DNA of 64,000 bases, from the NCBI GenBank assembly GCA_902594405.1, contig CACJMB010000003.1, forward strand, positions 113,649 through 177,648. The letters run 5' to 3'. Each line of letters opens with the position of its first letter. Positions within the stretch are counted from its first letter, which is position 1. Source of the DNA: an uncultured Pelagibacteraceae bacterium. GTDB taxonomy: Bacteria > Pseudomonadota > Alphaproteobacteria > Pelagibacterales > Pelagibacteraceae. Shown one piece after another: positions 57,648-60,828 of the stretch. The notes beneath the pieces are model-generated. The model was not told where the DNA came from. It was given only the letters and a program-made list of their open reading frames with translations, and searched no databases. Both the position numbers and the translations under genes were made by a program.

Positions 57648-57671
57648 CTTGTGGGGAGAAATCCCCACAAG
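57648..57671. terminator. Strong hairpin, probable bidirectional terminator
   Basis: CTTGTGGGG (57648-57656) / CCCCACAAG (57663-57671) perfect 9-bp stem between convergent permease and hsp20 genes; only a weak T tract follows. Confidence 0.75.
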
Positions 57672-57684
57672 CAAGGTTTAAGAC

Positions 57685-58131
57685 TTATTTAATTTCAATA
57701 AGCTTCTTTTTTTTATGTTCTGGAATTATTCTTTCACAAGATATTGTTAAAAGACCGTCTTTAAGTTCAGCACCATTAACTTTTACATCATCAGCTATAG
57801 TGAATGATCTTGCAAATTGTCTTTGAGAAATACCTTTATGAATAATTTCTCCATTAACATCACTGTCTTCAGACTTATTAACTTGTTTTGTTCTAACTGT
57901 TAATAAATTGTCCTCGAACTCAACCTCAACGTCCTTTTTGCTAAAGCCAGCCAATGCTACTTCAATTGCATAGTTGTCTTTACCAGTCTTTCGGATGTTG
58001 TATGGTGGATAATTTGACTGCATCGTCAAATTTCCATTTCCCAACATATTTTCAAATTGGTCGAACATATCATCAAAACCAATTGAAAAAGGTCTAAGTG
58101 AGTTAAATATAGATAGATCCTTACTTGTCAT
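57685..58131 (-). CDS. ibpA: Small heat shock protein Hsp20 (IbpA-like)
   Basis: FSIGFDDMFDQFENML, YPPYNIRKTGKDNYAIEVALAGFSKKDVEVEFEDNLLTV. Confidence 0.94.
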   Translation of the reverse strand: MTSKDLSIFNSLRPFSIGFDDMFDQFENMLGNGNLTMQSNYPPYNIRKTGKDNYAIEVALAGFSKKDVEVEFEDNLLTVRTKQVNKSEDSDVNGEIIHKGISQRQFARSFTIADDVKVNGAELKDGLLTISCERIIPEHKKKKLIEIK

Positions 58132-58136
58132 AATAT

Positions 58137-58186
58137 CCTCCTTTTTTAAGCAAGTTTATTTATGTAAGCCCCGTTAGGCGACTTAC
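58137..58186 (-). promoter_or_regulatory. Candidate ROSE-like RNA thermometer in the hsp20 5' UTR
   Basis: Minus strand CUUGCUU (58154-58148) AAAA AAGGAGG (58143-58137): SD pairs with CUUGCUU leaving one bulged G, the ROSE hallmark. An upstream hairpin GUAAGUC...GGCUUAC spans 58186-58164. Confidence 0.7.
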
Positions 58187-58193
58187 TAAGTTT

Positions 58194-58221
58194 ATATGGG
58201 AATTAATTTTTTTTTTTCAAG
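58194..58221 (-). promoter_or_regulatory. Predicted RpoH (sigma-32) promoter of hsp20
   Basis: Minus strand CTTGAA (58221-58216), 15 nt, CCCATAT (58200-58194), matching the heat-shock consensus. Confidence 0.72.
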
Positions 58222-58233
58222 ATTGAATGTGAA

Positions 58234-60309
58234 CTAAATTTTATTTGAAATTTTTAATGCAAATGCATAATCAATCGCAATTTCTTCTATTGCACCATCC
58301 CTTCCAGATTTTCCACCATGACCAGCATTCATCTCAGTTTTTAAAAGAAGTAAATTATTATCTGTTTTATAGTCTCTGAGTTTTGCTGTGAATTTTGCAG
58401 GTTCATCAAACAAAACTCTATTATCACTTAAACTTGTTGTAATAAAAATATGCGGATAATCCATTTTTTTAATATTGTTATAGGGTGCATATGAAAAAAT
58501 ATAATCAAAGTGTTCTTTATTTTCTTTTGCATTTCCAAATTCGTCAAATTCTCCCACAGTTAAAGGTAAGGAATGATCAAGATTAGTTGTTAAAGAATCT
58601 ACAAAAGGAACAGCCATTATAATTCCTAAGAATAATTCAGGAGATTGATTGACTACAGCTCCCATTAATAATCCTCCAGCTGATCCACCCATTCCAATAA
58701 TATTTCCTTTTGACGTATAATTCTTTTCGATCAAATATTTTGCTGCGTAAATATAATCTTCAAAAGTATTCTTTTTGTTTGTTAATTTTCCCTCTTTCCA
58801 CCACTTCATACCTTTTTCCATACCACCTCTAATGTGAGCTGTAGCCCAAATTATATCTCTATTGATAAGACTTAACCTTGTAGAAGAAAAACTTGGGGAC
58901 ATAGAATTTCCATAAGACCCATATCCATACAATAAAACATTTGCAGACCCATCAATTTTTGTTTTTTTGTGTCTAGTAATTGTTAATGGAACCATTCTTC
59001 CATCATGAGATTTAAACTCAACTCTCTCAACAATATAGTCATCTTTATTATGACCAGATGGGATCTCTTGTTCTTTAACAAGTTCTTTAGATTTTGTTGC
59101 TAAATTATATTTAAATACTCTAGAAGGAGTTTTAGGTGATGAGTATCCTAAATGAACTTCATCAGTATTTCTATCTTTTTGAGTTAAGCTTACTCCTGGA
59201 ACATAAACAGATTCATCAGAAAAAATTAATTCTTCTTCTATATTTGTTGAAATATTTTTGACAAATAATTTATCTAGTGCATCTGATGTTTCACCACGAA
59301 TAATCCAATTTTTAAGGAATGTTAATCCACCAATTAAAACTTCATCTTTTGCTGGAATATATGCTTTCCAATTTTGGTTTTCTAAATTGTCACAAATATC
59401 AATTTTAAAGTCTTCAGCATTTTTATTTGTATGATTATAAAATTTACCATGCCATGAATTAACAGAATACAGAACACCTCTTTCCCTTTTAATAATAAGT
59501 TTTGGAGATGGATTTAATTCATCTGATTTAAAATAATATTGCTCTGAAGTATTATGGTCAGAAGTATTTATAAAAAAATATTTTTCATCTGAGCTTTTTC
59601 CAATTCCTACTGTAAAAGCTTCACTTTTCTCCTCAAATATTAATTCATCTTTGCCCTCAAAATCACCTATTCTGTGCCTGTATATTGTTCTTGCTCTATG
59701 ATTTTTATCAAGTTTAGAATAAAAAATATATTTATCATCCAAACTAAATGTTATTCCTCCTGATGTCTCTGCAATTTCTTTTGAAATAATTTTGTTTGTT
59801 TTTATATCTCTTAAATAAATTGTATAATATTCAGATCCTTTAAGATCTAAAGAGTATCCTAGATATTTATCATTGTTACTTACTTCCAAATCCCCAACCC
59901 CAAAATATTCAGTTTTAAGTTTTTCTTTTTCTTTATCTCCATTCCATATTTCCTCAATATTTTCTGAACCAATTTTTTTTCTAAGTTTTATAGAATAATT
60001 TCCTTTTGTTGTGGTTTTTGTCCAATACTCATAGGTATGATCTTTATAGGGCAAAGATTCATCATCTAATTTAATTCTTGCTTTAATCTCATCAAATAAT
60101 TTTTTTTGAATATCTTTTGTATCTTTTAAATGATGCTCTGAGTATGCATTTTCATCTTCTAAATATTTTTTCACTTCAGGATCTAACTTACTTTTATCTC
60201 TGAGAACTTCCAAAATATTATCTTGATGAATCCAGCTGTAATTGTCTTCCCAATCAATATTGTGACAAGTTTTTATCTCTAGTTTTTTTTTAAGTTGTGG
60301 TACTTTCAT
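58234..60309 (-). CDS. ptrB: Oligopeptidase B (S9A prolyl oligopeptidase family)
   Basis: YGYGSYGNSMSPSFSSTRLSLINRDIIWATAHIRGGMEKGMKWWKEGKLTNKKNTFEDYI, GGSAGGLLMGAV, NAGHGGKSGR. Confidence 0.94.
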   Translation of the reverse strand: MKVPQLKKKLEIKTCHNIDWEDNYSWIHQDNILEVLRDKSKLDPEVKKYLEDENAYSEHHLKDTKDIQKKLFDEIKARIKLDDESLPYKDHTYEYWTKTTTKGNYSIKLRKKIGSENIEEIWNGDKEKEKLKTEYFGVGDLEVSNNDKYLGYSLDLKGSEYYTIYLRDIKTNKIISKEIAETSGGITFSLDDKYIFYSKLDKNHRARTIYRHRIGDFEGKDELIFEEKSEAFTVGIGKSSDEKYFFINTSDHNTSEQYYFKSDELNPSPKLIIKRERGVLYSVNSWHGKFYNHTNKNAEDFKIDICDNLENQNWKAYIPAKDEVLIGGLTFLKNWIIRGETSDALDKLFVKNISTNIEEELIFSDESVYVPGVSLTQKDRNTDEVHLGYSSPKTPSRVFKYNLATKSKELVKEQEIPSGHNKDDYIVERVEFKSHDGRMVPLTITRHKKTKIDGSANVLLYGYGSYGNSMSPSFSSTRLSLINRDIIWATAHIRGGMEKGMKWWKEGKLTNKKNTFEDYIYAAKYLIEKNYTSKGNIIGMGGSAGGLLMGAVVNQSPELFLGIIMAVPFVDSLTTNLDHSLPLTVGEFDEFGNAKENKEHFDYIFSYAPYNNIKKMDYPHIFITTSLSDNRVLFDEPAKFTAKLRDYKTDNNLLLLKTEMNAGHGGKSGRDGAIEEIAIDYAFALKISNKI

Positions 60310-60324
60310 TTAATAAGGAAATAT

Positions 60325-60828
60325 ATGAATATTATTATTTATCTACTTGTAATTTTAGTCATCTTATATTTTTTATTAAGATGGTGGTCAAATATTTCTC
60401 CAAAAAAAATGTCAAAAGGAGTAAGGTTGATAACAATTTTATTATTGGCTTTATTAGCAGTTTTATTTGCTATAGGTGGAAAATTTTTACTTACGTTGCC
60501 ATTAACTCTTGCAAGTCTTGCATTAGTTAAACTTAAAGGTTTATCATTAATACAATTGCTTTCTCTTTATAGACTTATTCAAACTTTGAGGAATTCTGGA
60601 AGATTTTCTTTTAATCAGTATCAAAATAACAACTCTTCATCATTATCAATATCTGAGGCATATAAAATTTTAAATTTAGATATTAATAAAAAACCAACCA
60701 AGGAAGCACTAAATAAAGCTTATCAAAAAATTCAAAAAAAAATTCACCCAGATATTTCTCCAGAGACTTCAAGATTATCTGCTATTGTTAATGAAGCTAA
60801 AGAAATAGTTCTTAAAGATATTTCTTAA
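60325..60828 (+). CDS. Membrane-anchored DnaJ-domain (TIM14-like) protein
   Basis: N-terminal TM segments and J domain SEAYKILNLDINKKPTKEALNKAYQKIQKKIHPDISP (HPD); start MNIIIYLL with AAGGAA SD. Confidence 0.82.
   Translation: MNIIIYLLVILVILYFLLRWWSNISPKKMSKGVRLITILLLALLAVLFAIGGKFLLTLPLTLASLALVKLKGLSLIQLLSLYRLIQTLRNSGRFSFNQYQNNNSSSLSISEAYKILNLDINKKPTKEALNKAYQKIQKKIHPDISPETSRLSAIVNEAKEIVLKDIS

Follow-up and report, generated by a model that had tools for sequence, protein, structure and literature searches.

Introduction

SAR11 bacteria are among the sea's most abundant cells and have few transcription regulators, and an hsp20/ibpA-like small heat-shock protein gene of this group raises the question of how its expression is controlled. 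The gene lies at 57685..58131 on the minus strand of the 64,000-nucleotide stretch of DNA analysed here (the window), encodes 148 aa, and matches PF00011 (E 8.5e-17) and NCBIfam IbpA (1.7e-29, under the cut-off of that model). Its AUG is read from the sequence at 58131-58129. It adjoins a prolyl oligopeptidase gene and lies 102 nt downstream of it. A gene divergent from this peptidase gene, at 60298-60828 on the plus strand, encodes a small protein whose C-terminal stretch resembles a J-domain (weak DnaJ/DjlA match).

In Pseudomonas ibpA, transcription by sigma-32 is combined with a two-hairpin, 61-62-nt ROSE element that melts in hairpin II but remains folded in hairpin I (PMC3669281). Our literature search found no paper on a ROSE element or on hsp20 control in Pelagibacter or SAR11, and a survey of structured RNAs in Pelagibacter, which covered intergenic regions over 100 bp, mentions neither hsp20 nor thermometers. 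The initial annotation had proposed dual control of hsp20 by an RpoH promoter and a ROSE-like leader, and sequence comparison supports both halves of this proposal. We conclude that, downstream of an RpoH-type promoter, the hsp20 leader very probably forms a compact RNA thermometer of the ROSE-like kind with two hairpins. It would join the known ROSE thermometers as a relative that had escaped annotation, conserved across the SAR11 genus, with a temperature response that we infer. A genus-wide thermometer on a single gene would show that minimal genomes keep direct temperature sensing by RNA, in a group facing ocean warming.

The comparison was based on 71 hsp20 genes of the genus collected with their leaders, 54 of which are distinct, and on the 80 nearest named hsp20 loci, which belong to Pelagibacteraceae or Pelagibacterales and include Ca. 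Pelagibacter ubique single cells. From these neighbours, the window most likely derives from an uncultured member of the Pelagibacteraceae.

RpoH-Type Promoter of hsp20

Upstream of hsp20, an RpoH (sigma-32)-type -35 box CTTGAA (58216..58221, minus strand) is separated by a 15-nt spacer from a -10 box CCCATAT (58194..58200, minus strand). The promoter CTTGAA-N15-CCCATAT had been proposed before, and it holds up in relatives, where CTTGAA/ATTGAA and a CCATAT/CTACAT-type box occupy the same places. The same promoter type is found at other chaperone genes of the genus: groES leaders carry CTTGAAA-N-CTATATGA, with the same -35 box, and dnaK leaders carry mostly CTTGTAG-N-CTTATATGA, which retains CTTG; both resemble the hsp20 boxes. 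The rpoH product is also encoded (TIGR02392, 363.7 bits; cut-off 323.1), so that the sequence features of the RpoH regulon, a CTTGAA-type -35 box, a CCCATAT-type -10 box and RpoH itself, are all present. Taken by itself, the promoter pattern does not exceed chance, with 11 genome-wide matches versus 13 for the reversed pattern, and therefore the assignment rests on conservation and on the sharing of the boxes with groES and dnaK. On this basis, hsp20 transcription would be controlled by RpoH, with a predicted start near 58187. Despite the common promoter type, no ROSE hairpin was found in the groES or dnaK leaders of the genus. These genes thus provide a natural control, which places the putative thermometer only at hsp20.

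Structure of the hsp20 Leader

By the predicted start, the leader is ~56 nt long (58187-58132) and lies directly before hsp20; the full ROSE-like element, comprising the leader and first codons, spans 58126..58187 on the minus strand. It opens with hairpin I (58164..58186, minus strand), GUAAGUC-G-CC-UAAC-GG-GGCUUAC (GUAAGUCGCCUAACGGGGCUUAC), which the initial annotation had placed at 58186-58164 and which is confirmed here by sequence, fold and covariation. Its folding energy is -10.6 kcal/mol (z -3.7), and none of 200 shuffles was as good. A looped-out G at 58179, missed in the initial annotation, is invariant in the 54 distinct leaders, and RNAalifold recovers hairpin I including this G unaided. 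Two-sided changes were found in six of the nine pairs, with 97.9% of alignment cells paired in the 54 distinct leaders. On a tree made from hsp20 codons 12-148, simple parsimony places 2, 5, 5, 4 and 5 double-change events on five stem pairs of hairpin I, ~21 in total. Covariation across the whole structure scored 0.238, compared with 0.138 when shuffled and at most 0.122 when slid.

Hairpin II is formed by the anti-SD strand CUUGCUU (58148..58154), an AAAA loop (58147-58144) and the Shine-Dalgarno (SD) sequence AAGGAGG (58137..58143), all on the minus strand, and is predicted to sequester the SD. It folds at -3.1 kcal/mol (z -5.3), with one of 200 shuffles as good. The SD had been described as pairing across a single bulged G. 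This G, at 58151, is present and invariant, but the strict bulge (-0.6) is only one of two registers, and the folding program favours a G.G mismatch of G58151 with G58140 of the SD (-2.5). Both arrangements are known in ROSE elements, the bulged G in the P. stuartii crystal structure and the G.G pair in the B. japonicum NMR structure (PMC11342760). CUUGCU with its G never varies among the 54 distinct leaders while the flanks vary, and CUUGCU also occurs in the g12 and f24 leaders. Hairpin II lacks covariation because the SD is fixed, and its evidence is the invariance of the UUGCU strand; the paired fraction of the SD (84.9% of cells in 54 leaders) is a lower bound, as MAFFT misplaces the SD in some leaders. 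A fourU thermometer was considered and rejected, since the anti-SD strand is CUUGCUU and not a UUUU run paired to the SD.

The testable features of the ROSE-like definition (PMC3669281; PMC11342760) are found in the leader, while its score stays below the Rfam cut-off. A stable, covarying hairpin stands upstream of the SD hairpin. The motif U(U/C)GCU is imperfectly paired to the SD, as UUGCU in the genus and as UCGCU in another family of the order (f2). The SD stem contains an unpaired or non-canonically paired G, except that 15 leaders of the CCUUGCU type are predicted to favour another register, a plain CCUU:AAGG stem that lacks the ROSE bulge. In 71/71 cases, the leader is the 5'UTR of a small heat-shock gene and ends at the start codon.

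Relation to Known ROSE Elements

A permissive cmscan of 601 nt aligned the leader with RF02523 (ROSE_3) over model positions 1-69 of 69, on the correct strand and at the start codon, with 22.5 bits (E 0.026). The curated gathering cut-off of this family is 43 bits; therefore the leader is not annotated by Rfam, and we do not file it as a curated RF02523 member. The initial annotation had expected a match to RF00435: a full-length ROSE-family alignment was obtained, but with RF02523 as the best family and below its cut-off. In this alignment, a hairpin with a looped-out G is followed by an SD hairpin with a looped-out G and then by the AUG in the same place as in ROSE_3, and a hairpin I with this looped-out G is part of both Rfam ROSE models. 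The SAR11 leader differs from ROSE_3 in its score, in its AU-rich outer stem and in having CUUGCU instead of CUCGCU. When RF02523 was searched, 0/150 relatives and 0/289 genomes of the class gave a match over the cut-off, and the top two matches among the 150 relatives were hsp20 leaders, at 35.1 (the genus best) and 28.3 bits. The element is thus invisible to standard annotation, yet not unlike the family. RF02523 was rejected as a finder in SAR11, as no match exceeds its cut-off and weak matches elsewhere (e.g. G000:C3:3135, G093, G134) lie away from hsp20.

A covariance model built from the genus leaders (R1) recovers 71/71 leaders with scores of 48.7-84.5 bits. Each of these genomes has a single such match, located at hsp20, and the next-best match across 150 genomes reaches 24.9 bits. 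The leader of the window, itself part of the model, scores 81 bits. R1 also matches 84/84 further loci, consisting of the 80 named loci, two genus genomes outside the training set, and the loci L284 and L285. As Rfam misses the whole clade, the present sequences and model would extend ROSE detection to AU-rich genomes.

Among characterized elements, Pseudomonas ibpA offers the closest parallels in organization (PMC3669281), with two hairpins, of which the 3' one pairs U(U/C)GCU with the SD, and sigma-32 combined with translational control of a small heat-shock gene, a control that would apply to SAR11 by analogy. In contrast, the SAR11 leader is AU-rich, and its hairpin I has a looped-out G and a conserved UYGCC-loop-GGGR cap. 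The initial annotation had called the element extremely compact; at ~56 nt from the predicted start it is compact, but only slightly shorter than the Pseudomonas ibpA ROSE, and the accompanying description of a cold-ocean microbe finds no support in our data. With ROSE (RF00435) of the B. japonicum ROSE1 type, the leader shares a UUGCU strand that sequesters the SD, a G that is unpaired or paired with G, and an association with alphaproteobacterial small heat-shock genes. However, classical ROSE elements have three to four hairpins (PMC3669281), whereas the SAR11 genus has two and family f2 three. The ROSE-like element of P. stuartii oppF also has UUGCU, a bulged G against the SD and U.G wobbles in the SD stem, but it controls an ABC transporter gene and has a different 5' part (PMC11342760).

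Distribution and Age of the Element

The initial annotation had made the thermometer depend on structural conservation in relatives, and the structure is conserved there. Outside the genus, R1 gave 55.9 bits at a locus of a sister genus of the family (L284) and 35.7 bits at a locus of another alphaproteobacterial family (L285), where ROSE_3 gave 34.5 bits. A longer hsp20 leader with three hairpins was found in family f2 of the same order (L073-L109). It carries UCGCU in the SD stem UUUAAUC-G-CUU-AAG-GAGGAUUAAA, and nine pairs of its upstream hairpins show two-sided changes. Versions in the sister genus and in other families indicate that the thermometer is probably older than the genus. The hsp20 protein was also sought in three g3 genomes of family f2, and none was found.

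Further observations concern these relatives. The upstream hairpins of family f2 also carry looped-out Gs (GCCUA-G-CUUA, GCUGAUG-G-CA), and its SD lies in a long UUUAAUC-G-CUU...GAGGAUUAAA stem. In the small-genome alphaproteobacterial family of L275/L285 (G165), hsp20 has a CTTGAA...TTATAT promoter and a ROSE_3-like leader, whose 34.5 bits are below the cut-off. Rfam may set this cut-off too high for AU-rich genomes.

Proposed Mechanism and Alternative Explanations

Considering these results, we propose a plausible model for hsp20 control. Under heat stress, RNA polymerase with RpoH would start near 58187, and hairpin I would form first and remain folded. At normal sea temperature, the SD AAGGAGG would be tied up by CUUGCUU in a stem that is weak and imperfect and encloses the unpaired or mismatched G. 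Warming would open this stem, allowing the 30S subunit to bind and Hsp20 to be made. By analogy with Pseudomonas ibpA, we infer that the leader closes off the SD at low temperature and frees it on warming. Promoter and thermometer together would form two gates that delay chaperone production by a minimal genome until the onset of heat.

Computed melting shows a weak predicted opening, with a temperature response too small to decide the matter: between 4 and 42 C, the mean predicted probability that the SD is unpaired rises from 0.18 to 0.27 for the leaders alone, and from 0.28 to 0.46 when 36 nt of coding sequence are included. Non-canonical pairs are poorly described by nearest-neighbour parameters. 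The small opening would also suit a constitutive brake and mRNA stabilizer, in which translation is reduced by the SD hairpin whatever the temperature, the 5' end is shielded by hairpin I and heat control is left to RpoH alone, and a stable 5' hairpin has been proposed as a stabilizer in Pseudomonas ibpA (PMC3669281). We consider this explanation improbable, because the flanks vary but the ROSE motif and the two unpaired Gs never do, groES and dnaK have the same promoter type without the element, and the two-hairpin relatives are proven thermometers (PMC3669281). An RpoH promoter acting alone, with the hairpins as chance features of an AT-rich leader, would fit the single-sequence Rfam score under the cut-off, but it is contradicted by covariation, motif invariance and model specificity to a degree that leaves it almost no probability. 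The thermometer therefore remains our preferred reading of the leader.

Frozen Start Codons and the 3'UTR Octamer

Few positions of hsp20 are as frozen at synonymous sites as codons 2-4 (ACA AGU AAG), with codons 3 and 2 ranking 1 and 2 of 96. Codon 4 is AAG in 65/68 genes, although AAA is the usual lysine codon, and no such frozen block is present in dnaK or groES. The fewest synonymous changes fall in the octamer AAGUAAGG (58119..58126, minus strand), from the end of codon 2 to the start of codon 5. Just after the hsp20 stop lies a complementary octamer, CCUUGCUU (57669..57676, minus strand), which resembles the anti-SD strand and occurs as CCUURCUU in 147/151 genus loci. It can pair with AAGUAAGG at 8/8 positions, and both consensus octamers are present in 145/151 loci. 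The 14-mer that combines the 3' octamer with the following hairpin arm was never found more than once in any of 41 genomes, and every occurrence was at hsp20.

Two additions to the thermometer could account for the frozen codons. In one, the 3' octamer would pair over ~450 nt with codons 2-5 and clamp the translation start from the 3' end. Among five loci with a changed coding octamer, three have also changed the 3' octamer and a fourth retains pairing by U.G (Fisher p 7e-5, uncorrected for relatedness, two of the co-changed genomes being close relatives). When 68 whole mRNAs were folded, the 3' octamer paired at a distance far more with the coding octamer than with any other partner, with a mean of 2.2 pairs and at least four in about a quarter of the genomes. 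In the other, the anti-SD would be bistable: CUUGCUU would pair either with the SD (off) or with AAGUAAG of codons 3-5 (SD free), the coding start thus being an anti-anti-SD. The same codons support this arrangement, as AAGUAAGG can form a 7-bp duplex with the anti-SD strand at -6.8 kcal/mol, which only 2.8% of synonymous recodings match, and in the 68 full-mRNA folds the anti-SD is split between the SD (2.3-2.6 pairs) and the coding start (1.2-1.4 pairs). However, CUUGCU is retained without an AAGUAAG partner in the g12 and f24 leaders and in L072, the outcome varies with the length of coding sequence folded, and the start codon would remain enclosed in the alternative helix, so that we regard bistability as unlikely. 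At L072, L284 and L285, the 3' octamer and the frozen codons are both missing while the anti-SD strand is retained, which favours the 3'UTR pairing over the anti-SD alternative. The clamp is itself put forward tentatively and with considerable doubt, since the last three bases of the octamer also belong to a local 3' hairpin, the fold of the window's own mRNA keeps the octamer local, and the idea was formed after the data had been seen. If true, a ROSE element clamped 5'-3' in this way would add a new variant to the RNA thermometers. Together, the frozen codons at the start and the matching octamer offer a specific and cheap handle on long-range control of a thermometer mRNA.

The 3' hairpin is GC-rich, with the arms CUUGUGGGGA and UCCCCACAAG (57648..57671, minus strand), and follows the hsp20 stop. 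A standard intrinsic terminator was rejected for it, as there is no consistent U-run. The hairpin is conserved in relatives with changing arms, which co-vary between genomes, as in CUUGUGGGG/CCCCACAAG and CUUGCGGAG/CUCCGCAAG.
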